From Hysterangium stoloniferum (Eukaryota; Basidiomycota; Agaricomycetes; Hysterangiales; Hysterangiaceae), in assembly GCA_015178975.1 (NCBI GenBank), contig WHVD01000066.1, positions 412,053 to 476,052 on the forward strand: a stretch of DNA of 64,000 nucleotides. Reading direction: 5' to 3'. Within the stretch, counting starts at the first letter, position 1, and each line of letters begins with the position of its first letter. The notes beneath the pieces were generated by a model. The model did no database searches. It saw only the letters and a list, made by a program, of their open reading frames with translations, and was not told the DNA's origin. Positions 8,500 through 64,000 of this stretch are shown piece after piece. Position numbers and translations under genes: made by a program.

Positions 8500-9925
8500 G
8501 CGGGTTAGGGGTTGCGTTGCCTCTCCGTGCATTCAAGAGTTTACTTGTCTCAACGCATCCGCTCTTTCACATTCTGATTCATTTTTCATTAAACTTATGT
8601 CTAATATGATTCCGAAATTCGTTTTTTCAGCTCTCATAGATTCCGGCTCGACTCATTGTTTTTTAGATACAAAATTCACGCAAAAAAATTCTTTGTCAAC
8701 TTATTCGATAAATCCCATCAGTCTCCGCCTCTTTGATGGCACAAGTAATTCGGTTGTTACCCAAGCTTGTGATTTACCCATCAGTTTCCCTTGTGGAACA
8801 TCTCAATTGGTCACTTTCTATGTGACCCAGTTAGACTCAAGTTGCTCGGTGGTCCTAGGACATAACTGGCTTACCCGCTACAATCCGTTGATTTATTGGA
8901 TAGCTAACAGTATAACATTCCGGACTCCCACAGCAGCCGAGGAAACTGCACCTGTCTCGGCCTCCACGGCACCCATGACCTTCCTGGCACCTGCAGTCTC
9001 GAGGACTCCTGTGATTCCTACGGCACTAATAGCTTCCCCGGAACCCATGGCACCTCCGTCCATTTCTCTGATTAATGCTGCAGCTTTTATTAGGGCTTCA
9101 AAAATGGATGGGTCCCAGGCGTTCACTATCAGCTTGAAAATTGATGAAGCAACTGGACGTTTTTCAACCCCCCGGTATCTGAATCTGAGCAAGCCGCTGA
9201 CCTAGAAGGTGTCCCGGAGAAATATCATGACTTTGCAGATGTTTTTAGCAAGCGAAAAGCTGACTGGCTTCCACCTCACAGAGAATACAACTTAAAAATC
9301 GATCTTGAAGATGGCGCCCAGCCACCCCTAGGACATATTTACCCGCTCTCGTCCACGGAACTTTCTGCAATCCGTGATTTCCTGGATGAACATTTGTCCA
9401 TAGGTTTTATCTGACCCTCAAAGTCTCCTTTTGGAGCACCTGTTCTGTTTGTCAGAAAAAAGGATGGATCCCTTTGACTATGTGTTGATTTTAGAGGACT
9501 CAATGCTGTCACCAAGAAGGATAAATATCCACTCCCACTTATATCTGACCTGCTTGATGCTCCGTGGAATGCCCGGATTTACACCAAAATAGATCTCAAA
9601 CATGCCTATCATTTGGTCCATATTGCCACGGGCAACGAATGGAAAACCACTTTAGAACCCGCTATGGGGCCTTTGAGTGGTTGGTGATGCCCTTTGGACT
9701 CACCAATGCTCTGTCTGTTTTTCAGCATTTTATCAATGACATTTTCTCCAACATGCTCGATGTATGCGTCATTGTTTACTTGGATGACATTCTTATCTAC
9801 TCCGAGAATCCCATGGAACACGACAAACAAGTCCGTGAAGTTCTCCGGAGACTCAGACAATATGGTGTATTCATGAATGGTAAAAAATGTACTTTTGACA
9901 CGGACTCCGTGGAATACCGGGTTTC
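8500..9925 (+). pseudogene. Protease and N-terminal reverse transcriptase of B1
   Basis: The aspartic protease motif FSALIDSGSTHCFLDTKF is read near 8620-8680. After a Pro/Ala-rich linker comes the reverse-transcriptase N-terminus (DFLDEHLSIGF, FGAPVLFVRKKDGSL, then LCVDFRGLNAVTKKDKYPLP). The catalytic YLDD box (VIVYLDDILIYSE) is at about 9773-9805. Frame changes occur near 9200, 9650 and 9915, and stops at two Arg positions can be explained by CGA-to-TGA changes. One of these (GSL-stop-LCVDF) is shared with element B2. Not functional as it stands. Confidence 0.85.
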
Positions 9926-12145
9926 ATGATGGGACCCGATGGACTCCGCATGGACGAAACTAAAGTGCAAGTCATCAAAGATTGGCCTGAACCCCGAAAA
10001 GTTAAAGATGTACAATCCTTCCTCGGCTTTGTTAATTTTTACAGATGGTTTATCTGTGGATATTCCAACATCACGGTACCCCTTACCCATCTTACATGTA
10101 AGGATACTCCATGGAATTTTAACGATAAGTGTCAAAAAGCTTTCAATCTTTTAAAAAATTCTTTTTCTTCAGCTCCTATTCTGTCACATTGGAAACCGGA
10201 CTTCCCACTCATCGTTGAAACGGATGCCTCGGACTATGCACTTGGAGCCATTCTGTCTATCCAGGACTCCGACGGAGAAGTCCACCCCATGACTTTTCTG
10301 TCCCGGACTTTCACCAGAGCAGACCTCAACTATGATGTTCATGATAAGGAACTCCTGGCAATCTTTTCAGCTTTCAAAGTGTGGCGACACTATTTGGAAG
10401 GCTCAGAAACTCTTATTGACATTGTAACAGATCACAAAAACCTGGAATACTTTTCTACCACAAAACTTTTGACCCATTGGCAGGCCCGCTGGTCTGAATA
10501 TCTATCTGCCTTCAACATGATTATCCGTTTTCGACCCGGCCGTCTCGGCGGCAAGTCCGACGCTTTAACTAGACGATGGGACGTCTATCCCAAAGAGGGG
10601 AGCAATGACTATGCAATGGTAAATCCGCACAACCTGAAACCTATTTTCACGAATCAACAACTTACCACATCGGTCCGCACAACCTTCCTCGTCAATCCCA
10701 TTGTCCGTGGAATTATCATTATGGATATTGAGAAGTTACATCAAGATATTCTATCAGCAATTCCGCTAGATCCAATTACTAAATCTCACCTTGACAATCC
10801 CGTGGACCCCGGTCAACCCCGGTGGTCTCTTGATCAACATGGTTTCATTAGACTTGACGATCGCATCTATGTACCAGACTCCGACGGCCTCCACCTTAGG
10901 ATCCTTCAATACAAACATGATCATCCACTCTCAGGGCATTTCAGGTACAACAAAACTCTATCATTAATAAGAAGAGAATACACTTGGCCCGGACTCTGTG
11001 GATTCATTAAGCACTATTGTAAATCTTACACTACTTGTCCCCACTCGAAATCTCAGCGACACAAGCCATACGGCCTTTTGAAACAACTCCCGGTACCGGA
11101 ACACCCGTGGAATTCTATCTCTATGGATTTCATTGAACACCTACCGGATTCCAAAGGCTTTTCTGCTATTCTAGTCGTTGTTGACAGATTCTCAAAACAA
11201 GGTATATTCATCCCTACATATGACACAATTACGTCCGTGCAGTTAGCGGAACTTTTCATTATCCACGTATTTTCTAAGCACGGAGTTCCATCCCACGTGA
11301 CTTCCAATCGAGGATCAGAGTTCGTGTCTCACTTCTTTAGATCCCTCAGAAAATCCTTGGACATGACATTACATTTCACGTCCGGACATCACCCGGAAGG
11401 TGACAGACAAACTGAATACGTCAACCAGACATTGGAACAATACCTCCACGTATATTGCAACTATCAACAGGACAATTGGAAATCCTTGTTACCACTTGCA
11501 GAGTTTGCTTACAACAATGCACCCTTGGCCACTACTGGTGTTTTCCCATTCTTTGCAAATAAAGGATATAATCCAAATATTACAGTACATCCAGAACAAA
11601 ATCTCGCCTCTGTTCATGCTCAAGAGTTCACCACAGACCTCCACAAGCTCCATGAGGAACTCCGGACTGCAATATTGTCCACCCAAGAGCAATACCAACA
11701 TTCAGTGGACAAACACCGGATCCCGCCACCAAACTTCAAGATTGGCGACCATGTTTGTGTCAAAGCTCAATTCTTCTGGACTACCAGTCCATCAAAGAAG
11801 CTTGCTGAAAAATATTTAGGTCCATTTGAAATTATCGCACAAGTAGGTTCAGTCTCTTGGACTCTACGGCTTCCGGATAGCATGTGCGCGGTACACCCGG
11901 TATTTCATGTTTCTATGCTAGAACCTTGTACTGCTAACACTATCCCAGATCGCGTGCAATCTCCGCCTCCTCCTGTCATTATTGATGGAGAACCTGAGTT
12001 TGAAATCTCACAGATTTTAGATTCAAAAATTGACAAGCGTCGACACACTTGTAAACTGCTTTACTTGGTCAAGTGGGTGGGTTACGAGGGCACCAATGAA
12101 GAAACCTCATGGATTTTGGCCACGGAACTCAGTAATGCCACGTAA
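9926..12145 (+). CDS. B1 pol: RT thumb, RNase H, integrase, chromodomain
   Basis: A 739-residue open stretch continues the polyprotein. In order it holds the RT connection (RKVKDVQSFLGFVNFYRWF), RNase H (VETDASDYALGAIL, later VTDHKNLEYFS), the integrase HHCC zinc finger (H-x-H around HDHPLSGHF, then CKSYTTCPHSK), the catalytic core (SMDFIEHLP, VTSNRGSEF, DRQTEYVNQTLEQY), the GPFEII/WTLRLP module and a C-terminal chromodomain (LLYLVKWVGYEGTNEETSW). The second catalytic Asp is Asn (VTSN, compare VTSD in element C), and Gly-to-Arg and Arg-to-Tyr changes lie by the Glu motif, so integration is probably dead. The chromodomain would direct insertion to marked chromatin. Confidence 0.9.
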   Translation: MMGPDGLRMDETKVQVIKDWPEPRKVKDVQSFLGFVNFYRWFICGYSNITVPLTHLTCKDTPWNFNDKCQKAFNLLKNSFSSAPILSHWKPDFPLIVETDASDYALGAILSIQDSDGEVHPMTFLSRTFTRADLNYDVHDKELLAIFSAFKVWRHYLEGSETLIDIVTDHKNLEYFSTTKLLTHWQARWSEYLSAFNMIIRFRPGRLGGKSDALTRRWDVYPKEGSNDYAMVNPHNLKPIFTNQQLTTSVRTTFLVNPIVRGIIIMDIEKLHQDILSAIPLDPITKSHLDNPVDPGQPRWSLDQHGFIRLDDRIYVPDSDGLHLRILQYKHDHPLSGHFRYNKTLSLIRREYTWPGLCGFIKHYCKSYTTCPHSKSQRHKPYGLLKQLPVPEHPWNSISMDFIEHLPDSKGFSAILVVVDRFSKQGIFIPTYDTITSVQLAELFIIHVFSKHGVPSHVTSNRGSEFVSHFFRSLRKSLDMTLHFTSGHHPEGDRQTEYVNQTLEQYLHVYCNYQQDNWKSLLPLAEFAYNNAPLATTGVFPFFANKGYNPNITVHPEQNLASVHAQEFTTDLHKLHEELRTAILSTQEQYQHSVDKHRIPPPNFKIGDHVCVKAQFFWTTSPSKKLAEKYLGPFEIIAQVGSVSWTLRLPDSMCAVHPVFHVSMLEPCTANTIPDRVQSPPPPVIIDGEPEFEISQILDSKIDKRRHTCKLLYLVKWVGYEGTNEETSWILATELSNAT

Positions 12146-12403
12146 ATTGTTACTGACTTTCATACAGCTTACCCGCTCAAACCTGGACCATTATCTTCTC
12201 TATGACCGCACTCCGCAGACCCCGTGTTACGTTTGGACTCATTTTCATTATTCCCTGTCGCCCTATGGTCTCTCTTTGCTTTTACAGGTTCTGACATGTC
12301 TTGTCAAGTCCTTAAGTGGACTCTCCACGGACTTTGGCTTTGACTTTTATTCTTATGTTTTTCACGCTTTACTTTTATGTTCAAATTATTATCAATTCTA
12401 TTT
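12146..12403. other. Spacer between pol and antisense gene of B1
   Basis: Lies between the two converging stop codons. The first codons still resemble the polyprotein tail seen in element C (TAYPLKPGPLSSL), so the stop at 12143-12145 is an early one. Confidence 0.5.
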
Positions 12404-13478
12404 TTATTCTTCATCTACATTGATGGGGCTATCTTTTTTCCCCGCCTCTTTTTCCACCTCAGCCTTTCCCACCTCATTCATCTCCTCAGGTAGCTCCGCG
12501 ACCTCCACGGGCACCTCCTCCTCATCTGAACCGGCCTCCTTGGAACTCCTGTCCTCTGGCTTGTCATATACAAAGCCGGCATACTCCATCAGGAATTTGA
12601 AGTGGTCCCCACGGATTGCATGGAGATCATTCACCATAATGACGCTGACTTTGTTGCTCTTCTGGAGCAACTCGTTTTGGGCTTCAATGCCCTTGGTGAT
12701 CTGTCCCAAGGCTTCCTCCAGACCGGAGTACTCATCCGACCCGCCATTCTCCCGTGAACCGGACCCCACGGCCTGCTCATGAACGAGTGAGCACCTCGCC
12801 TTGAGGTGCGCGCACTGGTAACACCCCGGGCCCCGGCTGGACTTCCAATTGCACTCAGTGTTCTGGTCATTACAACCGGAACACCACAGGTCATTCCAAG
12901 CCGGTAGGCAGGCTGGTGCCGCCTTCCTTGCTTTCTGTTGATACAGTTAGCTCCACGGTATACCCATGGACCCGAGACTCACCTTGTTGGGGCTTTCTGG
13001 CTCCCCCTCGGACTCAGACTCGACTTCCGCCACCTTGCGCTGAAAATGCCAAGTCAAAAAAAAAGCGACAAGTTGATCTATGGGACTTACCTTTCCTGCA
13101 ACAACCCCAGCTCTGTCCATGGCCACCCAGGCTTTCTCTGCTGCCACCCAGGCTTTCTCTGCTGCCACCCAGGCTTTCTGCTGCCACCCAGGCTTTCTCT
13201 GCTGCCACCCTGGCCTTCTCTGCAGCCACCCGTGCAGCCTCCTCCTCCTCCCTCTGCTTCTGCCTCACAGCCTCTTCCTCTGCAGCCACGGCTGCCTGGT
13301 ATTCCCTATTCAGGGCCTTCTTGACCTCCCGGGCTTCTCGCTCCACCTCTTCTCACTGTCGATGTTGCTCATCCCGCTGCACCAAGATTTGGGCAGCAGA
13401 CAGCGGTGCCCAGTACTGACTGCCCATCGAGGGCCTGGCGGTTGGCATAGGCTTGCACGGCATGGGCTTTAGTCCCAT
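12404..13478 (-). pseudogene. Antisense accessory gene of B1: coiled coil plus Zn2Cys6 cluster (recently broken)
   Basis: Read on the minus strand, against gag-pol. Inferred exons are 13478-13091, 13039-12983 and 12934-12404, with GT-AG introns of 51 and 48 nt (GTAAGT...CAG, GTGAGT...CAG), all phase 0. Exon 1 begins MGLKPMPCKP and becomes a charged Ala/Glu/Lys coiled coil with 7-residue VAAEKAW repeats. Exon 2 is short and acidic (RKVAEVESESEGEPESPNK). Exon 3 carries six cysteines spaced Cx2Cx6Cx9Cx2Cx6C (12883-12791), the spacing of fungal Zn(II)2Cys6 clusters, then a helical and acidic tail ending INVDEE. Two lesions are visible: TGA at 13355-13353 and a 2-nt loss in the repeat near 13180. 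With those undone the frame is open throughout. A homologue is in element C (60260-61238). A DNA- or nucleic-acid-binding role is an inference only. Confidence 0.75.
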
Positions 13479-33184: not shown

Positions 33185-33258
33185 GGTCCAGTAGCTCAGT
33201 AATTAAGAGCACTGCTTATATAAGCCAGAGGTCCTTGGTTCAATCCCAGGCTGGGTCA
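33185..33258 (+). tRNA. tRNA-like sequence in the 5' LTR of the miniature element
   Basis: 74 nt fold into a cloverleaf: the acceptor stem is fully paired (two G-U), D stem GCTC/GAGC, T stem CTTGG/CCAGG with loop TTCAATC, and discriminator A. The D-loop GG is AA here, damaging the A box. The anticodon stem has one mismatch and the loop TATATAA lacks T at position 33, so a normal decoding tRNA is unlikely. If read, the anticodon would be TAT. Confidence 0.6.
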
Positions 33259-33504: not shown

Positions 33505-33578
33505 GGTCCAGTAGCTCAGTGGTTAAGAGCACTGCTTATATAAGCCAGAGGTCCTTGGTTCAATCCCAGGCTGGGTCA
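33505..33578 (+). tRNA. tRNA-like sequence in the 3' LTR, A and B boxes intact
   Basis: Same as the 5' LTR copy, but the D loop is intact. A box TAGCTCAGTGG and B box GGTTCAATCCC both fit RNA polymerase III consensus, and TTTT follows 6 bp downstream. The anticodon arm has the same defects (one C-C mismatch, A at position 33). It could act as an internal Pol III promoter rather than a working tRNA. Confidence 0.65.
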
Positions 33579-40860: not shown

Positions 40861-40954
40861 TAATGTGGGAAAGCTAGGACACGAGTGAGAGGGTGCGTAA
40901 GTGTGTATTTGTGATGTAATGTGCCCGGTCATGCAATGTGAGTGAGGCAGCACA

Positions 40955-41290
40955 ATGTGGATGTGGTAACGTGATGTGAGTGAGGTGGCACAATGTAAGT
41001 GAGGTAGTGTGATGTGAGTGAGATGGTGTGATGTGAGTGAGATGGTGTGATGTGAGTGAGATGGTGTGATGTGAGTGAGATGGTGTGATGTGAGTGAGAT
41101 GGTGTGAGTGAGATGGTGTGATGTGAGTGAGATGGTGTGATGTGAGTGAGATGGTGTGATGTGAGTGAGATGGTGTGATGTGAGTGAGATGGTGAGATGT
41201 GAGTGAGATGGTGAGATGTGAGTGAGATGGTGTGATGTGAGTGAGATGGCGTGACATGAGTGAGATAGTGCGATGTGGGTGAGGCAGCAC
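40955..41290. repeat. 19-bp minisatellite
   Basis: About 16 copies of GATGGTGTGATGTGAGTGA with small variants. Long open frames over it on the minus strand (Ser/His/Thr/Ile repeats) are artefacts of the repeat. Confidence 0.85.
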
Positions 41291-41699
41291 GACATGAGTG
41301 AAATGGTGTCACATGAGTGAAGTGGTGCATCTTGCAAATTTTGTGATGAAGTGCATGAACAGTGCATCACACGACCAAGTGTATTACATCACAAATGCAA
41401 TGGAGTGTCATGTGGGAGTGCACATGACAGTAACCAGGGTGCCATTGTGGGCATGGGAAGGCTAAGGCTTGCGTCACTTGTGGATACAGACTGTGGGAAA
41501 CAGGCTGCTCACTTCACTCACAGGTGCTTCTATTTTATGACTCAGCAACAATGCCCACAGACCCACTACTGCAAATTAACTTATATGACAAGCTTAGGAA
41601 CCCTTGCTACACTGTGGGGCAGTCGTGAAACAATAGTTACAAAGGAAACAACCATTCCAATGGTTGAATTGACTGTCAACTGCAAGTGAACTGTGCTCA

Positions 41700-43279: not shown

Positions 43280-43554
43280 CTGGGAACCCTTGCTACGCTG
43301 TGGGACAGTCACTTTGCAACCTGTCCCACAATTTCACTGCAGGCTCCAGCTTGTTGGGGGCTTTGTCCCCAAACCCCCCCCGTATCAACAGCTCTTAAGT
43401 ATTTCTGAGACTCATTGTCATAAAACATGGAAAGTGTCACCAAACACAAAGTGTCACCAAACAGAAAGTCTCTTAGAATGTACACCCCTTTAAAGAAGAA
43501 AGTAAACAATGGGAAGTGTTATTACAAAAGGAAACAATGCACACAGAAGAAAAC

Positions 43555-44095
43555 CACAGTTACAAAGGAAACAATGGTTACAAAGGAAGCAATGGTTACA
43601 AAGGAAACAATGGTTACAAAGGAAGCAATGGTTACAAAGGAAACAATGGTTACAAAGGAAGCAATGGTTACAAAGGAAACAATGGTTACAAAGGAAGCAA
43701 TGGTTACAAAGGAAACAATGGTTACAAAGGAAACAATGGTTACAAAGGAAACAATGGTTACAAAGGAAACAATGGTTACAAAGGAAACAATGGTTACAAA
43801 GGAAACAATGGTTACAAAGGAAACAATGGTTACAAAGGAAACAATGGTTACAAAGGAAACAATGGTTACAAAGGAAACAATGGTTACAAAGGAAACAATG
43901 GTTACAAAGGAAACAATGGTTACAAAGGAAACAATGGTTACAAAGGAAACAATGGTTACAAAGGAAACAATGGTTACAAAGGAAACAATGGTTACAAAGG
44001 AAACAATGGTTACAAAGGAAACAATGGTTACAAAGGAAACAATGGTTACAAAGGAAACAATGGTTACAAAGGAAACAATGGTTACAAAGTAAACA
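43555..44095. repeat. 18-bp minisatellite GGTTACAAAGGAAACAAT
   Basis: About 30 tandem copies. In the first ~160 bp units with GAAGCAAT alternate with GAAACAAT, giving a 36-bp higher-order period; the rest is homogeneous. Because 18 is a multiple of three, all frames stay open (for example MVTKET repeats). I do not regard these as genes. Confidence 0.92.
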
Positions 44096-44117
44096 ACAGT
44101 TATACAGGAACAGTTAC

Positions 44118-44262
44118 AAAAGGAACAATGGTCACAAACAGAATAATGGTCACAAACAGAATAATGGTCACAAACAGAATAATGGTCACAAACAGAATAA
44201 TGGTCACAAACAGAATAATGGTCACAAACAGAATAATGGTCACAAACAGAACAATGGTTACC
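44118..44262. repeat. 18-bp minisatellite GGTCACAAACAGAATAAT
   Basis: Eight copies directly after the previous array, from which it seems derived. Confidence 0.88.
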
Positions 44263-44314
44263 AAAGGAAGAACAGTTCCAATGGTTGAATTCACTGTCAA
44301 CTGCAAGTAATTAC

Positions 44315-47109: not shown

Positions 47110-47910
47110 TATGGTGTACAGAAACACAAAGGACACACATACTAAATGGAGGAAAGATAGAGGAGGTTCATTAGAGGAAGAAGAAGAGAAAAAGACAGGG
47201 TACATGCACCACCTGGAGGAAAGAGACAGGAAGCCGATCAAAGGGGGATGGAGAGAGAAGGAAATGGTACACACACCACCTGGAGGAAAGAAAGGAGGCC
47301 AATCAGAAGAGGACAAAGGAAGAAGGAAAGAATACACACACTGGCTGGAGGAAAGAGAGAAGAGGCCAATGAGAGGAAGACAAAGAGAGAAGGGAATGGC
47401 ACACACACCACATGGAGGAAAGAGAGAGGGCAGATCAGAGCAGGATGGAGAGAGAAGGACACACCACCTGGAGGAAAGAAAGAGGGCAGATCAGAGCAGG
47501 CCAGAGGGATGCACTGGTTGAAGGAAAGAGAAGAGGCCAATCAGAGGAGGACAAAGAGAGAAGGACACAGTACATGCACTACCTGGAGGAAAGAGAGAGG
47601 GCAGGAAAGAGAGAGAAGGATGCACCACTTGGAGGAAAGAGAGGAGGCTGATTAGAGCAGGATGGAGAGAAGGACACACCACCTGGAGGAAAGAAAGGAG
47701 GCTGATCAGAGGAGGACAAAGAGAGAAGGAAATGGTGCACACACTGGCTGGAGGAAAGAGAGGAGGACAAAGAGAGAAGGGAAGGGAACACATACCATCT
47801 GGGGGCAAGACAGGGTGGCAAAAAGAGAAGAAAAGGGGACACACACATCCCTAGAGGAAAGAGAGGAAGATGAAGAGAGAAGAAAAGGGGACACGCATTA
47901 ACTGGAGGGG
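47110..47910. repeat. GA-rich ~70-bp array
   Basis: Largest of the GA-rich blocks; all ORFs on it are repeat artefacts. Confidence 0.75.
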
Positions 47911-48055
47911 CCAATCAGAGCAGGGTGCATGCCCAATCGGGCACAAACGGGCACAGCATGTTGTGAACAGGCACGGCGTGTGCGTGCATTGGCAAATGGA
48001 ATGTGCTTTGCCAGTTTGTGTCCGAGTGAGTGGGCAGGAATGTGCCTGTGGGTGC

Positions 48056-48630
48056 GTGGTGGATGGGAATGGGTGTGCAGTGCATGGGAGTGGGTGTGCA
48101 GTGCATGGGAGTGGGTGTGCAGTGCATGGGAGTGGGTGTGTGGTGCATGGGAGTGGGTGTGTGGTGCATGGGAGTGGGTGTGTGGTGCATGGGAGTGGGT
48201 GTGTGGTGCATGGGAGTGGGTGTGTGGTGCATGGGAGTGGGTGTGTGGTGCATGGGAGTGGGTGTGTGGTGCATGGGAGTGGGTGTGTGGTGCATGGGAG
48301 TGGGTGTGTGGTGCATGGGAGTGGGTGTGTGGTGCATGGGAGTGGGTGTGTGGTGCATGGGAGTGGGTGTGTGGTGCATGGGAGTGGGTGTGTGGTGCAT
48401 GGGAGTGGGTGTGTGGTGCATGGGAGTGGGTGTGTGGTGCATGGGAGTGGGTGTGTGGTGCATGGGAGTGGGTGTGTGGTGCATGGGAGTGGGTGTGTGG
48501 TGCATGGGAGTGGGTGTGTGGTGCATGGGAGTGGGTGTGTGGTGCATGGGAGTGGGTGTGTGGTGCATGGGAGTGGGTGTGTGGTGCATGGGAGTGGGTG
48601 TGTGGTGCATGGGTGCATGGTGGATGGGTG
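48056..48630. repeat. 21-bp minisatellite GTGTGTGGTGCATGGGAGTGG
   Basis: About 26 nearly identical copies; the first three have GTGCAG. A 21-bp unit keeps frames open in all directions (Cys/Val/His/Gly and Pro/Thr/His repeats), so the long ORFs across it are not evidence of genes. Confidence 0.92.
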
Positions 48631-48639
48631 TGCAGTGGA

Positions 48640-49059
48640 TGGGCGGTTTCTCATTAGAACACCATCCTCTTCTCATTATTGGAACCTCCACTCATGTCAT
48701 TACCCTTTTGTGGCAACCCCAATACTTGTTCATAGTGTATTCCCATTCCATTCCATCTCTCCTCCACCTGTCCCTCCATTTCCATCTCCATGTATACTCT
48801 TATTTGTCACCTAGTATTGTTTCTTAGTACCATACATTAGTTCTATATCTCCCCACCTCATAATCACTTCCCCATGCTCCATCCTACACTTCACTTCTTT
48901 GATTGGGGCCTTCTGATCACCCATCTTGATGTAGTATAAAGCTCTCTTCATGTACACTACAGTTCTTCAGTTCAAATATTGACTTAGATTAGCCTCTCTT
49001 AGTCTTGTGCCTTTTCCTCAATACCTACCCCACAAGAGTGGTCTTCAGCAAGCCATGAC
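48640..49059. other. Interval with no recognised gene
   Basis: Contains a copy of the block also found near 37075-37145. No supported ORF. Confidence 0.3.
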
Positions 49060-52099: not shown

Positions 52100-53380
52100 G
52101 TATTGCAGTCTGGAGTTCTTCGTGGAGCTCGTGGAGGTCCATGGTGAACTCTTGAGTGCGAGCAGAGGCAAGATTTCATTCTGGATGTACTGTAATATTT
52201 GGATTATATCCTTTATTTGCAAAGAATGGGGAAATGCCAGTCATTGCTCCCCTCTTTAGGATAGACCTCCCATCGTCTAGTTAAAGCGTTGGGTTTGCTG
52301 CCGAGATGGCCGGGTCGAAAGTGGATAATCATGTTGAAGGCAGATAGATATTCAGACCAGCGGGCCTGCCAATGGGTCAAAAGTTTTGTGGTAGAAAAGT
52401 ATTCCAGGTTTTTGTGATCTGTTACAATGTCAATAGGAGTTCCCGAGCCTTCCAAATAGTGTCGCCACACTTTGAAAGCTGAAAAGATTGCCAGGAGTTC
52501 CTTATCATGAACATCATAGTTGAGCTCTGCTCCGGTGAAAGTCCGGGACAGAAAAGCCATGGGGTGGACTTCTCCGTCGGAGTCCTGGATAGACAGAATG
52601 GCTCCAAGTGCATAGTCCGAGGCATCCGTTTCAACGATGAGTGGGAAGTCCAGTTTCCAATGTGACAGAATAGGAGCTGAAGAAAAAGAATTTTTTAAAA
52701 GATTGAAAGCTTTTTGACACTTATTGTTAAAATTCCATGGAGTATCCTTACGTGTAAGATGGGTAAGGGGTACCGTGATGTCGGAATATCCACGGATAAA
52801 CCGTCTGTAAAAATTAACAAAGCCGAGGAAGGATTGTACATCTTTAACTTTTCGGGGTTCAGGCCAATCTTTGGTGACTTGCACTTTAGTTTCGTCCATG
52901 CGGAGTCCATCGGGTCCCATCATGAAACCCAGGTATTCCACGGAGTCCGTGTCAAAAGTACATTTTTTACCATTCATGAATACACCATATTGTCTGAGTC
53001 TCCGGAGAACTTCACGGACTTGTTTGTCATGTTCCGTGGGATTCTCGGAGTAGATAAGAATGTCGTCCAAGTAAACAATGACGCATACATCGAGCATGTT
53101 GGAGAAAATGTCGTTGATAAAATGCTGAAAAACAGACAGAGCATTGGTGAGTCCAAAGGGCATCACCAACCACTCAAAGGCCCCATAGCGGGTTCTAAAA
53201 GTGGTTTTCCATTCGTCGCCCATGGCAATATGGACCAAATGATAGGCATGTTTGAGATCTATTTTGGTGTAAATCTGGGCATTCCACGGAGCATCGAGCA
53301 GATCAGATATGAGTGGGAGTGGATATTTATCCTTTTTGGTGACAGCATTGAGTCCTCTAAAATCAACACATAGTCAAAGG
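52100..53380 (-). pseudogene. B2 pol: RT, RNase H and a stump of integrase
   Basis: The frame 53238-52213 holds RT with VIVYLDDILIYSE, the connection domain and RNase H (VETDASDYALGAIL, VTDHKNLEYFS). After RRWEVYPKEGSND an internal deletion shifts into WHFPILCK-stop. Read in the other frame, the joined DNA is the C-terminal integrase part (SPF-type FPFFANKGYNPNITVHPE, then QEFTMDLHELHEEL). The HHCC finger and the DDE core are gone. An in-frame TGA (GSL-stop-LCVDF) near 53375 separates it from upstream RT codons and is shared with B1. Confidence 0.85.
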
Positions 53381-54250
53381 GAGCCATCCCTTTTTCTGAC
53401 AAACAGAACAGGTGCTCCAAAAGGAGACTTTGAGGGTCTGATAAAACCTATGGACAAATGTTCATCCAGGAAGTCGTGGATTGCGGAAAGTTCCGTGGAT
53501 GAGAGTGGGTAAATATGTCCTAGGGGTGGCTGGGCGCCGTCTTCGAGATCAATTTTTAAGTCGTATTCTCTGTGAGGTGGAAGCCGGTCAGCTTTCCACT
53601 TGGTAAAAACATCCGTGAAGTCATGATATTTCTCCGGGATGCCTTCTAGGTCAGCGGCTTGCTCAGATTCAGATACTGGGGTTGAAAAATGTCCAGTTGC
53701 TTCATCAATTTTTAAGTTGATAGTGAATGCCTGGGACCCGTCCATTTTTGAAGCCCTAATAAAAGCTGCAGCATTAATCAGAGAAATAGATGGAGGTGCC
53801 GTGGGTTCCGGGGAAGCCATGGGTGCCATAGGGATCACAGGAGTCCTCGAAACTGCAGGTGCTGGGAAGGCCATGGGTGCCGTGGAGGCCATGTCAGGCG
53901 CAGTTTCCTTGGCTGCCGTGGGAGTCCGGAATGTTATACTGTTAGCTATCCAATCAATCAACGGATTGTAGTGGGTAAGCCAGTTGTGTCCTAGGACCAC
54001 CAAGCAACTTGAGTCTAACTGGGTCACATAGAAAGTGACCAATTGAGATGTTCCACAGGAAACAGATGGGTAAATCACAAGCTTGGGTAACAACCAAATT
54101 ACTTGTGCCATCAAAGAGGTGGAGACCGATGGGATTTATCGAATAAGTTGACAAAGAATCTTTTTGCATGAATTTTGTATCTAAAAAACAATGAGTTGAG
54201 CCTGAATCTATAAGAGCTGAAAAAACGAATTTCGGGATCATATTAGACAT
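53374..54250 (-). pseudogene. B2 protease and RT N-terminus
   Basis: The frame from 54250 has the aspartic protease (FSALIDSGSTHCFLDTKF). A frame change near 54060 follows, then the frame 54114-53374 has QLVTFYVTQLDSSCLVVLGHNWL, a Pro/Ala linker and the RT entry DFLDEHLSIGFIRPSKSPF and PVLFVRKRDGSL. The sequence differs from B1 mainly at transition sites. Confidence 0.82.
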
Positions 54251-54366
54251 AGGTTTAACGAAAAATGAATCAGAATGTGAAAGAGCAGATGCATTGAGAC
54301 AGGTAAACTCTTGAATGCGCAGAGAGGCAATGCAACCCCCAACCCGCGTGGAGTCTGTGGGGTTGC

Positions 54367-55590
54367 TTACTCTTTTTTCAAGTTGGAAGCCAGTTTGTCC
54401 TTCAACGGGGTTTCCATGGAGGCCTTGGCTGTTTGACCCTTAGAAGAGTTTGCTTTTGCCAGCGGACATTCTGGGATTCGATGACCAGGTTTCCCACAAA
54501 AGAGACAGAGGTTATTGTCCATGCGACGTTGTCTTTCCTGTGGGGTCAATTTGCCATCGGGTCCGAGTTTGCCTGAGAGGTCGGGTTTTCTGGCTTGCTT
54601 GCCAGACTGTTGACCCTTGTTATTGTCCTTGTTGTTATTGTTGTTGTTGTTGTTAGAAGACTTTTTATTGTTCTTCTTGTTGGATTGCGTGGAGTTTTGG
54701 TTGCTGGTTGACGAGTTGTTGTTGTTGGTTTTATTGGCCATGGACTTGTTCACTTTGTCTGTGGAGGTCTCGTGGGCAACTTCCATGCGACATTCCCAAT
54801 AGCGTGTGTCTGCATTTTGAGCTTTGAGGCGCATACGGGACAGGGTTTTTGGCTTGCCATCTTCTCCTTTCGAGAGTTCGTCTTTAAGGCGGGACGGCAG
54901 ACCAGCATAGAATTGGTGGCGGAGAGTGGGATCACCCCACTGACAATGAGCTGCAAGATTATTGAATTGGACGATATAGTCCGTGATGCACTGTGTGTCC
55001 TTCATACGAAGATTTGTGAGACTATTCTCGGCTTCTCCTGTCAGGTCATATGGGCCAAAGTTGGTTTCAAGCTCCTCAACAAAAGCATCCCAATTTTCGA
55101 GCCAAAGCGGCTCTTCCTCGGAGATTCCGCTAAAAGCCGGTTCGAACCATTTCAACACAGCGGATCGATCGTGGAAATTGAAGCAACATTGCATGAGGAA
55201 AGTAGAGAGCTTGTTTGGGTTGGAACCCATGAAGGGTTCCGGAGCATTGACTTTCCACCATGGAGGTTCTTGTTCCTTTTTCTTTCTTTCTTCGAGCAGG
55301 TGCATCATAAATTTATCTATAGTACCTGCTAAAAACTCAGAAGTAGGATCCCCCAAGTGCAGTCGTTGACTAGGCAGAGGATTTTTGACACCTTTGCCCT
55401 TGTTGGGGGCCATGGATTCGTCCTTGTGCTTGGATTCAGCCTGGTTTTCCAGGACTTCTTCGATATGGGCTTCTTCCATGGGTTCCAACTGGTTCACAAG
55501 CGTCTGACTGGTATACAAAGTTAATGGGGAATGAAGAGTCGACGGTCCAGGTAATGATGCCTGTGCGTTCACTTTCTTTCTTGGTGGCAT
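54367..55590 (-). CDS. B2 gag, open reading frame intact
   Basis: ATG at 55590 (MPPRKKVNAQASLPGPSTLH), 407 residues, no stop. N-terminal acidic region, capsid core (LKWFEPAFSGISEEEP, NWDAFVEELETNFGPYDL, QFNNLAAHCQWGD, FYAGLPSRLKDEL), Asn-rich linker and one intact zinc knuckle (CLFCGKPGHRIPEC, Cx2Cx4Hx4C). Compared with B1 about 20 residues are missing in frame between FNFHD and LKWFEP, so the capsid may still be altered. The start is preferred over the upstream MFFN codon because B1 and A begin at the same point. Confidence 0.88.
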   Translation of the reverse strand: MPPRKKVNAQASLPGPSTLHSPLTLYTSQTLVNQLEPMEEAHIEEVLENQAESKHKDESMAPNKGKGVKNPLPSQRLHLGDPTSEFLAGTIDKFMMHLLEERKKKEQEPPWWKVNAPEPFMGSNPNKLSTFLMQCCFNFHDRSAVLKWFEPAFSGISEEEPLWLENWDAFVEELETNFGPYDLTGEAENSLTNLRMKDTQCITDYIVQFNNLAAHCQWGDPTLRHQFYAGLPSRLKDELSKGEDGKPKTLSRMRLKAQNADTRYWECRMEVAHETSTDKVNKSMANKTNNNNSSTSNQNSTQSNKKNNKKSSNNNNNNNNKDNNKGQQSGKQARKPDLSGKLGPDGKLTPQERQRRMDNNLCLFCGKPGHRIPECPLAKANSSKGQTAKASMETPLKDKLASNLKKE

Positions 55591-55614
55591 ATTGAAAAAC
55601 AATCTGCGAGTCTT

Positions 55615-58022: not shown

Positions 58023-58865
58023 CTATATTCCAGATGCCACAGTACAGTTAATTTTAATCCATTGCCTTACAAAGGATTCAAATGTTATTGCACATTTTGA
58101 CGATACCTCCTGTTGGCTTAGTAGCAAATCATCTGGTGCAACTATCACTTGGGGTAACCTACTTCCACAAAAAAGTCTTTACTCCTTGAATATCTATTCC
58201 ACCCATGCTGAACATGTTCTCGTCATGCAACGTGCACCCATGCTTGAAACTTGGCATCACCACCTTGGACATGCAAATTATCAATCTATCCATGACATGT
58301 TCAATAGTGGGCTTCTCAAAGGTGCAACACCAACCTCTTCCTCACCTCATTCTAAATGTGACTCCTGCATTCTTGGGAAACAGAGTAAAACACCTGTTCC
58401 AAAGAAGCAGGAGGAGGGAATGGGTCATAGAGCAACAAGGAAGTTGGAAAAGGTGTGGGTAGATTTATCAGGACCTAATCATGTCACTTCACATGCTGGA
58501 TTCAACTATGCCATGAACATTGTAGATGACTACTCTAGTTTCACTTGGACAATCCTACTTAAACTAAAACGTGACACCTTTACCCAGCTTCAAATTTGGG
58601 AACAGGCTCAAGAAGTTGAGACTGGATTAAAGGTTGGTATTTATAGAACAGACAATGGTGAACTCAAAAGCCATGATATGATGAATTGGTTAGCCTCATG
58701 AGGAACAGTCCACCAATATACCATTCCATACACATCAGTGCACATTGGGCATATGGAAAGACTCCATCACACCTCAATGTCAAAAGCAAGAACCATGTGT
58801 ATCTATGCCAGTTTGCCTGCATATCTATGGGACAAATTCTACCTCACTGCTGCTCACCTAGATGT
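58023..58865 (+). pseudogene. Ty1/copia polyprotein fragment (GAG-pre-integrase and integrase)
   Basis: Reads SGATITWGNLLPQKSLYS, then the zinc-binding pre-integrase region (TWHHHLGHANYQSIHDMFNS … CDSCILGKQ) and integrase (VWVDLSGPNHVTS, MNIVDDYSSFTWTILLK, GIYRTDNGE). An in-frame TGA at 58699 (in place of Arg) is followed in the same frame by GTVHQYTIPYTSVHIGHMER and LPAYLWDKFY. Gag, protease and RT are lost. The left border is the B2 LTR and the right border is the gypsy C LTR. Confidence 0.85.
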
Positions 58866-59367
58866 TGTTACGACCGTGTCGCAACCCTATCGGTCCCGAG
58901 GTTATCGCCACTTGTCAACATTTCAAGTCATCCTCTCGGAAACCATCGGCCCCGAAGCTGATGAATGTTTTCGCGAAGATCAAACTCCGTTTACACCCAT
59001 GTCAAAACAACTCGTATTGTCTGGTCAAACTTTGATACATCCCTTTATTATGTTGATCCGTTCAATCTTATGTTTCGCATATGTCTATCTATATTTGTAG
59101 TCCTTGAACTATTTCCTTTTATCGTAATCCCGCTCTCGGTTATCATCGGCCTCCGAACTAATCATAAACTTCCCGTTCCTAGTCAAGCTTATTGTTAATA
59201 CCGTGTTCCGCCCTTCTCCCCATTAGTAATTTCCAGACGCCTGTTACTTGTATATGAACCCGCTGTAGTTGTAGTTACTAGGCAATCAGAATATCGACTC
59301 AGAATACCCTCATACGCCTGTATCAGTCTCATACTAAGAATCCCCCCATCCACCTTCGCGTGCGCTC
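58866..59367 (+). repeat. Family C LTR, plus orientation, truncated by insertion
   Basis: Begins TGTTACGACCGTGTCGC inside the copia fragment and matches the inverted LTR next to it for 502 bp. It stops at GTGCGCTC where the minus-strand C element starts. The remainder should lie beyond the window on the other side of that element. Confidence 0.8.
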
Positions 59368-60087
59368 TGTTAAGAACTGTAAACTGACTAATGTCGGTGG
59401 CCGACAGGGACCGATCGGAAGGACTTGGCTTCAGCTTATGGGCTGCGCCCTCGCAAATATCCGCAGGATGTCCTTAAATTTCGGGTGGGCGAAGACTAGT
59501 CCTAGTGAGTACCTTTCGGCGTGATACCGATCGGAATCGAAGGACAAGTCGGGCGTCGGGCCAAGGGGTCGGGGCCGGGAGTGGGCGAGCGCACGCGAAG
59601 GCGGATGGGGGAAGTCTTAGTATGAGACTGATACAGGTGTATGAGGGTATTCTGAGTCGATATTCTGATTGTCTTGTAACTACAATTACAGCGGGTTCAT
59701 ATACAAGTAACAGGCGTCTGGAAAATACTAATGGGGAGAAGGGCGGAACACGGTATTAACAATAAGCTTGACTAGGAACGGGAAGTTTATGATTAGTTCG
59801 GAGGCCGATGATAACTGAGAGCGGGATTACGGTAAAAGGAAATGGTTCGAGGACTACAAATATAGATAGACATATGCGAAACATAAGATTGAACGGATCA
59901 ACATAATAAAGGGGACGTATCAAAGTTTGACCAGACAATACGAGTTATTTGACGTGGGCGTAAATGGAGTTTGATCTTCGCGAAACATTCGTCAGCTTTG
60001 GGGCCGATGGTTTCCGAGAGGATGACTTGAAACGTTGACAAGTGGCGATAACCTCGGGGCCGATAGGGTTGCGACACGGTCGTAACA
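59368..60087 (-). repeat. 3' LTR of gypsy C (720 bp)
   Basis: Plus-strand left end TGTTAAGAACTG, right end CGGTCGTAACA. On the minus strand it is preceded by the purine tract AAAAGGGGAGA (about 60102-60092). Confidence 0.85.
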
Positions 60088-60202
60088 GTATCTCCCCTTT
60101 TGGCCGAAATCCCAAGGAGGCCGAAAATCTAGATCCCGTACGTAAAAACTTGTCGGGTACGGCTGGGTGTGTCAAACATCATGTGACTCGGCAAAAGTTG
60201 CA

Positions 60203-60210
60203 TATAAAAG
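60203..60210 (+). promoter_or_regulatory. TATA box of the gypsy C antisense gene
   Basis: TATAAAAG 50 bp before the ATG at 60260, between the LTR and the gene. Confidence 0.55.
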
Positions 60211-60259
60211 TTTGAGAGTTCCTGGCGCTTGAAATTCCACTTCCCTTCCTTTAACCACC

Positions 60260-61238
60260 ATGACCATAGGCTCGGGGTCAAAGCCCTTCCCGGTTAGGTT
60301 AACAGTTGCGCCCATGTCGGCGCCGAGTGGTACGGCGAACGTGAAAGAGCGTCGGCGTATACTCGAGCAGAAGAAAAAGGCGCGTGAAGAGGAGGAGCGG
60401 AAAGAGAAGGAGGAGTTGGCGGCCATCGAGGCCGAGGAAAAGAAACAGGTGGCAGAAGAGGCCACGCGCAAGCACTGGGAAGCAGTGCTTGCAAAGAACA
60501 AGCAGCAGGAGGCCGATCGGGCGCGGGAGGAGGCGGCAAAAAAGAAGCGGGAGAGAAAAGTGAGTCGGCTCTGGTGTCTTTTGCGAACCTTACTGACAAT
60601 ATCTGTTAGCGCAAGGCTGCAACGCCTTCGGAGTCCGATGACGAAGAGGGAGAGGAGGACGAGGAGGATGCACCGGGGCCGTCGAACCCCAAGGTGGGTT
60701 CGGTTTCCTAAAGAAAAACTTCCTAAATAATTTTTTTCTATAGAAACAAAAGCAGGCCCCCAAGGCGGGGCCCGAAAATGACCCCAAGTGCAATCGGTGC
60801 ACGAAACGGGGTCGAACCTGTCATCCCCGGACCAATGGTCGGGGCCGCACTTGTCAAGAGTGCACTGATCAGAAGCTTGGGTGTGTTTTCCCGGGGGCCG
60901 ATGGCTCATTCCAGGAGCGACAGGCTGATGCTCTAGAAGAGCAAAACCGCCTCATGTGGACCTACTTCTCGGAGACGAGCCGGTACCGATATGAGATGTT
61001 GCGACAACAAGGGCTCATAACTGAGCAATTGCGACTCTTGGGCGTCGGGCTGGAGAAACAGACCAGTGTTATCGAGTCTCTCGGTGGTCAACTTGAGCAG
61101 TATTTGGAAGTCTCGAGTTGCAGTGGGCATGAAATTGGGGTTTCGGAGAAGGTCGGTGGTGTGGTATTGGTGGCTGTCGGTGCGGAGGAGGGTTCGGAGG
61201 TCGGAGAGGAGGGAGAAGTTGTAGAGGGAGAAACTTAG
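60260..61238 (+). CDS. Antisense accessory gene of gypsy C: coiled coil, Zn2Cys6 cluster, helical tail (292 aa)
   Basis: Exons 60260-60559, 60610-60693 and 60744-61238 join in phase 0 to 293 codons with no stop. The 50-nt introns have GTGAGT…TTAG and GTGGGT…ATAG ends. Exon 1 (MTIGSGSKPFPVRL…) is a highly charged coiled coil (EEERKEKEELAAIEAEEKKQ). Exon 2 is acidic (SESDDEEGEEDEEDAPG). Exon 3 has Cys at 144, 147, 154, 165, 168 and 175, i.e. Cx2Cx6Cx10Cx2Cx6C as in fungal Zn(II)2Cys6 factors, followed by a Gln/Leu-rich helix (MLRQQGLITEQLRLLG) and an acidic Val/Gly/Glu tail. It converges on pol with 97 bp between the stops. The homologue is in B1. The product's role is unknown; DNA binding, silencing control or a Gag-like RNA role are possibilities. 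Confidence 0.8.
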
Positions 61239-61335: not shown

Positions 61336-64000
61336 TTATAAGGAATTGAGAGGACCGGGTTTGTTCGGATAAGCTTGGTGAAACCCTAAAACGATTTCCG
61401 AGGCATTACCGAGCTCTGTAGCTAGGATCCATGAAGTTTCTTCATCTGTACCTTCATAGCCAGCCCATTTGACCAAATAAAGTAATTTGCATGAGCGTCG
61501 GCGATTGTCGATTTTTGAGTCTAGGATTTCTGATATCTCGAATTCGGGTTCCCCATCAATAATCACGGGTGGAGGTGGTGGCTGTATGCGATCCGGTATA
61601 TTGTTAGGAACACAAGGTTCTAACATAGATACATGAAATACCGGGTGCACTGCACGCATGTTGTCGGGGAGCCGAAGCGTCCATGAAAGCGTGCCGGCTT
61701 GTGCTATAACTTCAAAAGGACCTAAATATTTTTCAGAGAGCTTCTTAGAAGGTCTAGTAGTTCGGAAAAACTCGGCTTTAACGAATACTCGGTCTCCGAT
61801 CTTGAAATCAGGAGGTGGAAGGCGGTTTTTATCCGCAGACCGTTGGTATCGTTCTTGAGCCATTGCGATAGTTTTACGAAGTTCTTGATGTAGCTCGTCG
61901 AGGTTTGTAACAAAGTCTTGAGCACGGGCGGATGCGAGATCGCGTTCCGGGTGGATTGCGATGTTGGGGTTGTAGCCTTTATTTGCGAAGAAAGGCGAAA
62001 TGCCAGTAGTGGCATTCGGTGCGTTGTTGTATGCGAATTCGGCCAGCGGTAGTAGTGATTTCCAATTGTCTTGTTGATAGTTGCAATAGACACGGATGTA
62101 TTGCTCCAAGGTTTGATTCATGCGTTCGGTTTGTCCATCGCCTTCCGGGTGATAGCCCGAAGTGAAATGTAACTTCATGTCTAGTGCTTTTCCGAGTGAC
62201 CTAAAGAAGTGAGAGACAAACTCGGATCCGCGATCGGATGTGACATGTGACGGAACGCCATGCTTGGAAAATACGTGGGTAACGAATAATTCAGCTAACT
62301 GTACAGATGTTATCGTGTCATATGTTGGAATGAAAATACTTTGCTTTGAGAGCCGATCCACAACAACTAGGATTGCTGTGTGACCTTCGGATGCCGGTAG
62401 GTGCTCGATAAAATCCATAGAAATCGAGTTCCAAGGTTTTTCTGGTATCGGTAATTGTTTGAGTAGGCCATATGGTTTGTGTCGCTGTGATTTAGAGCGT
62501 AAACACGTAGTACAGGATTTACAATAGTGCTTAACAAAATCTCGGATGCCGGGCCATGTATATTCTCTTCTAATGAGTGAGAGGGTCTTATTGAGGCCGA
62601 AATGTCCTGAGATTGGGTGGTCGTGCTTATGTTGTAGGATTCGCAGCCGAAGGGTGTCGGAATCCGGTACATAAATGCGATTGTCAAGTCGAATGAAACC
62701 TTGTGAGTCTAATGACCATCGGGGCTGATCGGGGTCGGACGGGTTATCGAGGTGTGCTTTGGTGACTGGGTCTAATGGAATTGCCGATAGTATATCTTGA
62801 TGTAACTTTTCGGTATCCATAAGGATAACACTTCGCAAGACTGGATGAATGAGGTAAGTGGCTCGGATGGATGCGGACAGTTGTTCCGATGAAAACATAG
62901 GTTTGAAATTATGCGGATTAACTGTGGCGTAGTCGCTACTCCCCTCTTTAGGATAGACGTCCCATCGTCTAGTCATAGCGTCGGGTTTTCCACCAAGGCG
63001 GCCGGGACGGAAGCGAATTACCATGTTGAAAGCGGAGAGGTATTCGGACCATCGAGCTTGTCGACGGGTGAGAAGTTTTGTGGTTGAAAAGTAAACTAAA
63101 TTTTTGTGGTCTGTAATAACATCTACCGGGTGGGCCGAGCCCTCCAAATAATGTCGCCATGTCTTGAAAGCTTCAAATATTGCGAGTAATTCCTTATCGT
63201 GAACGTCGTAGTTGAGTTCGGGCGCCGAAAATGTGCGAGACAGAAAAGCTACTGGGTGTACTTCACCATCAGTGTCCAGAATGGACAATATCGCGGCAAG
63301 CGCATAGTCCAAAGCATCAGTTTCCACGATGAGTTGAACGTCGGGTTTCCAGTGCGACAAAATAGGGGCGGATGTAAACGCACTTTTCAATTCCTGGAAT
63401 GCCGATCGGCATTCGTCGGAGAAATTCCATGGGGTGTCTTTGCGAGTAAGACGAGTGAGCGGAACGGTAATTTTTGAGTAATTGTGAATGAAACGGCGAT
63501 AAAAATTGGCGAAGCCTAAAAAGGATTGAATATCTTTAACCTTTCGGGGTTCCGGCCAATCTTGAATGACTTGAATTTTAGCGTTGTCCATGCGGAGACC
63601 ATCGGGTCCCATCATGAAGCCTAAGTATTCAACCGTGTCGACATCAAAAGAACATTTTTTACCATTCGCAAAAAGACCATGTTTTCGGAGTCTTCGGAGG
63701 ACTTCACGGACGTGTTCATCATGAAGTGTAGGGTCTTCGGAGAAGATGAGGATGTCGTCTAGGTACACAATGACAAAGACGTCAAGGAGGTCGGAAAAGA
63801 CGTCGTTGATAAAACGTTGAAAGACCGACGGAGCGTTGGTGAGGCCGAAAGGCATTACTAACCATTCAAAGGAGCCATAGCGAGTGCGAAAAGCCGTTTT
63901 CCATTCGTCGCCTTCGGCGATCCGAACCAAATGATAGGCGTGTTTGAGATCTATCTTTGTATAAATTCGGGCCTTCCGAGGGGCGTCGAGTAAATCGGAG
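61336..64000 (-). CDS. Gypsy C pol: RT, RNase H, integrase, chromodomain (partial)
   Basis: One open frame runs from the window edge (SDLLDAPRKARIYTKIDLKH) to the stop at 61336. RT has VIVYLDDILIFSE; RNase H has VETDALDYALAAIL, with Leu for the usual Ser, and VTDHKNLVYFS. Integrase has HDHPISGHF…CKSCTTCLRS (HHCC) and an intact DDE set (SMDFIEHLP, VTSDRGSEF, DGQTERMNQTLEQY). Next comes the GPFEVI/WTLRLP module, the chromodomain (LLYLVKWAGYEGTDEETSW) and the tail FHQAYPNKPGPLNSL. Gag and protease lie beyond 64000. All catalytic residues visible here are kept, so the element may be recently active. Confidence 0.93.
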   Translation of the reverse strand, partial: SDLLDAPRKARIYTKIDLKHAYHLVRIAEGDEWKTAFRTRYGSFEWLVMPFGLTNAPSVFQRFINDVFSDLLDVFVIVYLDDILIFSEDPTLHDEHVREVLRRLRKHGLFANGKKCSFDVDTVEYLGFMMGPDGLRMDNAKIQVIQDWPEPRKVKDIQSFLGFANFYRRFIHNYSKITVPLTRLTRKDTPWNFSDECRSAFQELKSAFTSAPILSHWKPDVQLIVETDALDYALAAILSILDTDGEVHPVAFLSRTFSAPELNYDVHDKELLAIFEAFKTWRHYLEGSAHPVDVITDHKNLVYFSTTKLLTRRQARWSEYLSAFNMVIRFRPGRLGGKPDAMTRRWDVYPKEGSSDYATVNPHNFKPMFSSEQLSASIRATYLIHPVLRSVILMDTEKLHQDILSAIPLDPVTKAHLDNPSDPDQPRWSLDSQGFIRLDNRIYVPDSDTLRLRILQHKHDHPISGHFGLNKTLSLIRREYTWPGIRDFVKHYCKSCTTCLRSKSQRHKPYGLLKQLPIPEKPWNSISMDFIEHLPASEGHTAILVVVDRLSKQSIFIPTYDTITSVQLAELFVTHVFSKHGVPSHVTSDRGSEFVSHFFRSLGKALDMKLHFTSGYHPEGDGQTERMNQTLEQYIRVYCNYQQDNWKSLLPLAEFAYNNAPNATTGISPFFANKGYNPNIAIHPERDLASARAQDFVTNLDELHQELRKTIAMAQERYQRSADKNRLPPPDFKIGDRVFVKAEFFRTTRPSKKLSEKYLGPFEVIAQAGTLSWTLRLPDNMRAVHPVFHVSMLEPCVPNNIPDRIQPPPPPVIIDGEPEFEISEILDSKIDNRRRSCKLLYLVKWAGYEGTDEETSWILATELGNASEIVLGFHQAYPNKPGPLNSL

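Follow-up and report, generated by a model that had tools for sequence, protein, structure and literature searches.

A predicted spliced antisense gene with a zinc-cluster-like cysteine motif in chromovirus-like Ty3/gypsy elements of Hysterangium stoloniferum

A lineage of chromovirus-like Ty3/gypsy elements in Hysterangium stoloniferum, a truffle-like agaricomycete of the Phallomycetidae, carries a predicted antisense accessory gene between pol and the 3' long terminal repeat (LTR). In the copy that we describe first, the gene occupies 60260-61238 on the forward strand, opposite to pol of the element (element C), and consists of three exons with 292 codons and a stop. It is almost certainly a real gene carried by element C. 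As to what it does, we give a probability of about 0.55 to the reading that its product serves mainly as an element-encoded nuclear DNA-binding regulator of the element itself, and the evidence for this reading and for its rivals is set out below.

The window, by which we mean the whole stretch of 64,000 nucleotides that was analyzed, comes from an H. stoloniferum assembly of 111 Mb in 554 contigs. The contig ends at position 64000 of the window, and the 5' end of element C lies beyond that end. The features of element C and its antisense gene are as follows.

58860-59367, forward strand: partial LTR of the same family as that of C, inverted (95% identical) and abutting the LTR of C
59368-60087, reverse strand: 3' LTR of element C, TGTTACGA..TTAACA, 720 nt, bounded by where homology ends in the copies
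60088-60101, reverse strand: polypurine-tract-like sequence AAAAGGGGAGATAC ahead of the 3' LTR
60203-60209, forward strand: TATA box TATAAAA, between the LTR and the start codon
60260-60559, forward strand: exon 1, with the start codon and a charged K/E-rich helix that has KKKRERK at its end
60560-60609, forward strand: intron 1, 50 nt, phase 0, GTGAGT..CTGAC..TTAG
60610-60693, forward strand: exon 2, acidic SESDDEEGEEDEEDA
60694-60743, forward strand: intron 2, 50 nt, phase 0, GTGGGT..TATAG
60744-61238, forward strand: exon 3, with the cysteine cluster, amphipathic helix, acidic tail and stop
60789-60884, forward strand: cysteine cluster Cx2Cx6Cx10Cx2Cx6C, residues 144-175
60924-61112, forward strand: amphipathic helix behind the cluster, a possible dimerization helix, residues 189-251
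61336-63930, reverse strand: pol of element C, with reverse transcriptase (RT), RNase H, integrase, SH3 and a chromodomain-like end

An earlier note on this DNA had described a spliced frame antisense to the element with its own TATA box, and each of these points holds for the window copy. The gene is flanked by pol and the 3' LTR of C, its phase-0 joins are open through both GT..AG introns, and the TATA box falls within the 172 nt that separate the LTR from the start codon, outside the LTR. The sequence at the start codon is ACCACCATGA, and a second in-frame ATG of exon 1 occurs at 60314. The stop codons of the gene and pol are 97 nt apart, in a tail-to-tail arrangement. In pol itself, RT, RNase H, integrase and SH3_Tf2-1 score above their Pfam cut-offs in that order, and the Chromo match at the end scores 24.0 bits, just under the cut-off of 25.1. 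Homology of the LTR to most other close copies stops at or near 59368, and the two LTRs that meet there in inverted orientation could reflect insertion of C into another copy. Elsewhere in the window are direct-repeat arrays at 43403-44310, 47870-48814 and 40880-41370 (units of 9/18, 21 and 19 nt), several of which overlap open frames, and two tRNA-Ile genes with a TAT anticodon (33185-33258 and 33505-33578) in a 320-nt tandem duplication that is 99% alike over 254 nt.

The gene is not confined to this copy. At least 150 protein-level matches, with identity from 100% down to 68%, were scored in the genome among 449 first-look candidates for this form of the gene (type C); many of the 150 have open frames, and TGA accounts for most stops in the rest. 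Our type C set consists of 50 copies, namely the window copy (L009) and 49 others (L010-L058) with 70-99% nucleotide identity to it; loci L001-L008, which duplicate L009, L018, L031, L021, L016, L011, L014 and L017, were left out. All 50 copies have pol next to the gene in antisense, tail-to-tail orientation, including one (L056) in which the pol match is short and only 40% identical and another (L025) that has, beyond the gene, an additional short pol match pointing the opposite way. GT..AG borders are present at both introns in 46/50 copies, and the cluster spacing can be read in 46/50 when any of the three frames of exon 3 is allowed. A TATAAA or TATAAG stands upstream in 49/50, the exception being L029, in which the upstream region has been replaced. 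The description of the gene as intact applies to the window copy and does not extend to the family: internal stops are absent from 28 copies, and at least one is found in the other 22, in a count that starts reading every exon at its aligned border, so that a frame change in a copy adds to its stops.

Insertions and deletions are distributed unevenly over the gene. Intron 1 is 47-61 nt long in the copies except L053, where it is cut, and has 15 distinct indels; intron 2 is 44-60 nt long except in L052 and L053, where it is cut, and has 24 distinct indels in 49 copies. The introns accordingly hold 39 distinct indels in 100 nt, one of them a 170-nt deletion in L053 that also takes exon 2 and intron 2, compared with 3 in the 375 nt of the cluster-plus-helix core of exon 3 (49 copies). 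Exon indels come in multiples of three in 7 of 13 events in exon 1, 0 of 6 in exon 2, 1 of 3 in the exon 3 core and 4 of 7 in the tail, the frame-breaking ones being present because many copies are decaying. Length in threes, which holds only in part by this count of events, was dropped as evidence for coding, and the case for coding conservation therefore rests on indel density and on dN/dS.

Substitutions indicate that the gene is kept by purifying selection in many copies. Over five bins of rising divergence, dN/dS in the gene frame is 0.35, 0.29, 0.20, 0.23 and 0.15, calculated from pairs with more than 600 compared sites that are pooled and not independent. In every bin this is the lowest value of the six frames, and the next lowest belongs to the opposite-strand frame -2. 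The earlier note had counted, among the results that would refute it, a rate of stop accumulation equal to that of non-coding LTR DNA; that is not the pattern, and the dN/dS of the gene frame is by far the lowest. In the two bins of greatest divergence, third codon positions (0.29 and 0.40) keep pace with introns (0.24-0.29 and 0.38). Since pooled pairs are not independent, disjoint pairs were also used (L029 and L053 excluded), and pN was below pS in 15 of 15, with ratios of 0.16-0.37. When pooled over the more divergent pairs, pN/pS is 0.26 for the N-terminal part, 0.30 for exon 2, 0.21 for the cluster and 0.41 for the tail, and it is lowest, at 0.18, over 60900-61109, the helix behind the cluster. 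Divergence of the gene follows that of pol with a Spearman coefficient of 0.90 over pairs of 43 copies, the 7 of 50 without a long enough pol match having been excluded, and thus the gene descends with its element.

A homologous gene is found in a second gypsy element of the window, element A, whose features are these.

9920-12202, forward strand: 3' part of pol of element A, 78% identical in amino acids to pol C over 761 residues
12404-12934, reverse strand: exon 3 of the element A gene, cluster Cx2Cx6Cx9Cx2Cx6C
12935-12982, reverse strand: intron 2, 48 nt, GTGAGT..CTAAC..ACAG
12983-13039, reverse strand: exon 2, RKVAEVESESEGEPESPNK
13040-13090, reverse strand: intron 1, 51 nt, GTAAGT..TCAG
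13091-13478, reverse strand: exon 1, with one stop and one frame change in the window copy

Exon 2 of this type A gene starts with RK and ends with PNK, and that of the type C gene also starts with RK and ends with NPK. A tblastn search of the 64-kb window with the C protein gave no match at the element A gene, and between the types tblastn matched one of the eight loci in a small set (L095, 27% identity), with an E-value of 6e-7 that applies to those eight loci. Comparison of profiles, in which type C was represented by 15 sequences (alignment A1) and type A by 13 (alignment A2, the window copy and 12 further loci), all picked for an open exon 3, joined the two with a probability of 93.5% and an E-value of 2.4e-7; the aligned region spans the cluster and the beginning of the helix. 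The genome holds at least 150 type A protein matches among 1187 first-look candidates. In the 13 sequences, chosen as stated for an open exon 3, the six cysteines and their spacing Cx2Cx6Cx9Cx2Cx6C are invariant; a TATA box lies upstream in 12, a GT start is seen in 12 for intron 1 and in all 13 for intron 2, and every intron ends with AG. For type A exon 3, dN/dS is 0.263, and here too the other five frames have higher values. Retrieval with pol only (its SH3 domain) led to the type A gene, whole or in part, in antisense orientation at 8/8 loci, with the cluster intact at 5/8; these eight are the best of 150 scored matches from 2638 candidates. Element B (52101-55602, reverse strand) is a damaged relative of element A, with arms I1, I3, I4, I6, I7 and I9 that are 90-98% alike; residues 1-334 of its pol run straight into 640-688, so that much of the interior is lacking.

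A third, older group near the annotated protein BU17DRAFT_68499 (P0004) is decayed, with stops inside, and its cluster spacing is readable in 4 of 7 loci examined. Twenty loci found with P0004 as the query were read (L059-L078), some at places already read. In two of them, L061 and L062, there is no pol match within about 1.5 kb of the gene, and these two and L059 belong to an old, decayed subfamily. At L071 and L072 (contig C84) the end of pol shares the strand of the zinc-cluster gene, in contrast to the remaining loci with a pol match, and the arrangement there is probably inverted or nested.

Among annotated proteins of H. stoloniferum, BU17DRAFT_68404, BU17DRAFT_68499, BU17DRAFT_80596 and BU17DRAFT_86143 match the antisense gene family. 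Two of these, BU17DRAFT_68404 (P0003) and BU17DRAFT_68499, look mis-modelled, and the latter begins downstream of the cysteine cluster. Gene finders may misread such antisense genes, which is a warning for annotation. The earlier note had suggested that the product be searched against basidiomycete proteins to see whether hits sit antisense in gypsy elements. The genomic copies do, in the 50 cases described above, and the protein matches (one, two and two by query) all belong to H. stoloniferum; no homologue from elsewhere was found among 5.8 billion proteins by a search that needs shared 5-residue words and, in one of its three runs, scored the best 8000 candidates. Viral contigs gave 117 pattern matches, 0 of which were confirmed.

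The layout of the predicted protein is that of a nuclear DNA-binding protein, with a basic KKKRERKRK, an acidic exon 2, a cysteine cluster, an amphipathic helix after the cluster and, as the earlier note had it, an acidic C-terminal tail. In Zn(II)2Cys6 proteins the cysteines are spaced Cx2Cx6Cx5-12Cx2Cx6-8C, and canonical members have basic residues between Cys2 and Cys3. The cysteines of the window copy, at residues 144, 147, 154, 165, 168 and 175, have this spacing, so that in this respect the cluster was read correctly in the earlier note. Strict membership in the family did not follow: the full-length type C protein has no match to Pfam Zn_clus (PF00172) at E <= 1, and Zn_clus matches below the cut-off come from four of the 13 type A members, with a best E of 0.08, and from a single one of the 15 type C members, with E 0.61. 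The unrelated families AvrD, Calici_MSP and DUF6310 score as well or better on members, and therefore the Zn_clus E-values mean little. In NCBIfam, 14 members gave just two weak matches, both unrelated. A joint profile of types A and C retrieved four PDB sequences at E <= 5, all of them Zn2Cys6 factors (two sequences of LEU3, SPCC27B12.11c and Pho7) with weak E-values of 0.077-0.9. With the type A profile, LEU3 came at E 0.4, behind talin, and neither the single protein nor the type C profile found a Zn2Cys6 protein in PDB at E <= 1. The residues between Cys2 and Cys3 are TKRGRT in type C and NDRNTE-like in type A. Since type A is without the basic residues at this place, any contact that its protein makes with DNA may depart from the canonical mode.

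Two stretches of the protein had to be considered as helices. The coiled coil that the earlier note placed in the protein was not borne out, as the N-terminal K/E-rich stretch has a hydrophobic moment that 97% of shuffles reach and shows no heptad-like hydrophobic face; it is better described as a charged helix than as a classical coiled coil. Over residues 189-251 the hydrophobic moment is reached by 0.95% of shuffles when the stretch is taken as a whole, and by 9.8% and 9.2% for its halves, which are not significant.

An obvious question is how such a gene would act for the element. We propose that it is transcribed toward pol from its own promoter and then spliced. A sense intron is lost once genomic RNA has been spliced and reverse transcribed. 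Introns of the antisense gene would outlive retrotransposition, as the genomic RNA is the opposite strand and splice signals are not read there; the kept introns fit the antisense orientation because, from what is known of retrotransposons, splicing of the genomic RNA would pass them over. The protein would enter the nucleus by means of KKKRERKRK, its six cysteines would fold round zinc as in Zn2Cys6 proteins, and it may pair through the helix behind the cluster. It would then bind DNA of its own element, most likely the LTR or adjacent sequence, and the binding would set the level of sense transcription, in line with what has been proposed for plant antisense accessory open reading frames (ORFs) and in a layout comparable to that of retroviral HBZ. 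The earlier note had likewise spoken of an element-encoded regulator. What stands of this claim is a gene encoded by the element, with a promoter-like TATA box, under selection and present in two diverged gypsy families, and the regulatory role itself carries the probability that we gave at the outset. If this proposal is true, the antisense strand lets a retrotransposon keep introns while it encodes its own regulator.

A search for a binding word in the LTR, covering 59587-60087 (part of the LTR at 59368-60087), put TCGGCC first with 5 sites, a top count reached by 8.7% of simulations, and no enriched word was found in type A. TCGGCC, which is not significant after correction, was rejected as a binding word and is kept as a lead only.

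One alternative is that the protein, by binding its own element, works against CpG methylation or heterochromatin, in the manner of the VANC proteins, which act as anti-silencing factors for the VANDAL elements of Arabidopsis. Close copies of the family decay mainly by C to T change at CpG. In 29 copies (L009-L038 without L029), C>T (or G>A) changes at CpG make up 54 of 91 singletons, and the rate of change is 0.367 per CpG site versus 0.050 per other C/G site; most stops in the copies are TGA, as change of CGA to TGA would give. This bias suggests that the type C family is probably under CpG methylation, which makes anti-silencing a rival to be set beside LTR regulation. The gene, moreover, has a pN about 2.6-3.4 times that of pol in three bins with a pol pS of 0.02-0.35, and a gene that changes faster than pol is expected if specificity follows the element. 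Against this, pol pN exceeds gene pN in the most divergent bin (40 pairs), and no LTR word is enriched. We regard an anti-silencing function as possible but improbable. A broader conjecture, which we hold tentatively and with slightly more confidence than anti-silencing by itself, takes in both functions: the family would encode its own sequence-specific zinc-cluster regulator or anti-silencing factor, whose rapid change tracks the cis sites of each family in a contest with CpG methylation, and the antisense gene would date back at least to the split of the two families whose pols are 78% identical.

It is less probable again that the protein is an accessory of replication or integration, acting not in transcription but in nuclear import of the pre-integration complex, as a nucleic-acid chaperone or in integration targeting. 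The basic stretches and the cysteine cluster would also suit a nucleic-acid chaperone, and among the roles discussed for plant antisense ORFs is one in helping the pre-integration complex to enter the nucleus (PMC7264820). However, pol C already has a chromodomain-like terminal module, and a component of the particle would need no internal promoter apart from the LTR.

The remaining alternatives fare much worse. Proteins of the Zn2Cys6 type are typical of fungal hosts, and 42 places in the genome reach Pfam Zn_clus, so a host gene captured as a passenger without function for the element had to be considered; none of the 42 coincides with a listed copy of the gene when compared by eye, which leaves no host parent gene among them, and selection across copies and the same exon layout in two families make capture very unlikely. 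That the antisense RNA alone matters, by forming double-stranded RNA with pol while the protein frame is incidental, has in its favor that the tail-to-tail layout would make the transcripts overlap, but it is contradicted by selection at the amino acid level and by the few indels in the exon 3 core, and we consider it barely credible. Least likely of all is an env-like ORF on the sense strand as the real product, since its 245-residue frame (60172-60909) is open in the window copy but only 8 of 50 copies have an open sense stretch of at least 230 residues (the median being 173), and in each bin dN/dS is higher for all sense frames than for the gene frame.

Antisense accessory genes as such are already known, from plants and from Boty. 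The earlier note referred to plant gypsy lineages, which is correct for plants, and the prior art is wider and includes a fungus. The brtn gene of Boty-like gypsy elements of Botrytis cinerea was reportedly treated by Zhao et al. in 2011. As Boty is described, this antisense gene lies between pol and the 3' LTR of an element whose gag-pol includes a chromodomain (PMC7264820, PMC8365987, PMC4227169, PMC5987419). The H. stoloniferum gene resembles it in being an extra antisense gene at the same site of a fungal gypsy element whose pol has, in H. stoloniferum, a chromodomain-like end; B. cinerea differs in being an ascomycete, and the likeness is one of position and orientation as given in the descriptions of brtn.

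The plant antisense accessory ORFs (aORF-3R) include Grande gene23, RIRE2, Retand ORF4/TRP28 and PvRetro13, and are similar in position, orientation and presence in most copies (PMC7264820, PMC11963269). The H. stoloniferum gene has the attributes by which aORF-3R are recognized, in that it is antisense between pol and the 3' LTR (50 type C copies), is present, whole or in part, at the eight loci retrieved through pol (type A) and has a conserved coding sequence in both types. Grande gene23 is described as a nuclear protein with its own promoter and TRP28 as a predicted DNA-binding protein (PMC7264820, PMC11963269). The TATA box in 49 of 50 copies and the basic stretch are candidate counterparts of the Grande promoter and nuclear protein. 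The plant genes differ in their domains (TRP28, SMC), and Retand belongs to a non-chromovirus lineage. The word "intron" is absent from the main text of a 2020 review of antisense ORFs (PMC7264820), and the word "antisense" is not used in passages of a survey of fungal LTR elements (PMC3248453). Among the matches listed from the open-access literature, there is no spliced zinc-cluster antisense gene in a fungal retrotransposon, none in Basidiomycota and no selection test on a fungal one. As far as we have searched, the zinc cluster, the conserved introns, the occurrence in Basidiomycota and the measured selection are new.

Two further comparisons concern the protein. HBZ is a bZIP protein and is spliced. 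Like HBZ, the H. stoloniferum protein would be an antisense nuclear factor of an LTR element; HBZ differs in being a bZIP protein rather than one with a cysteine cluster, in belonging to an infectious animal retrovirus and in having its promoter inside the LTR. In HTLV-1, HBZ is reported as an antisense nuclear factor (PMC11963269), and the antisense promoter of HTLV is placed in the 3' LTR (PMC7264820). LEU3 and Pho7 share with our protein the six-cysteine spacing and a weak profile similarity, but our protein does not reach the Pfam cut-off, and its gene belongs to a retrotransposon.

What antisense accessory genes do for LTR retrotransposons is described as still unknown (PMC7264820). A fungal case with a cysteine cluster, many copies, measured selection and conserved introns makes this question testable, in terms of which DNA is bound, whether transcription of the element is raised or lowered and whether methylation is undone. 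A small antisense gene with introns for a probable zinc-cluster nuclear protein, maintained by selection, suggests that these genomic parasites make their own regulator.
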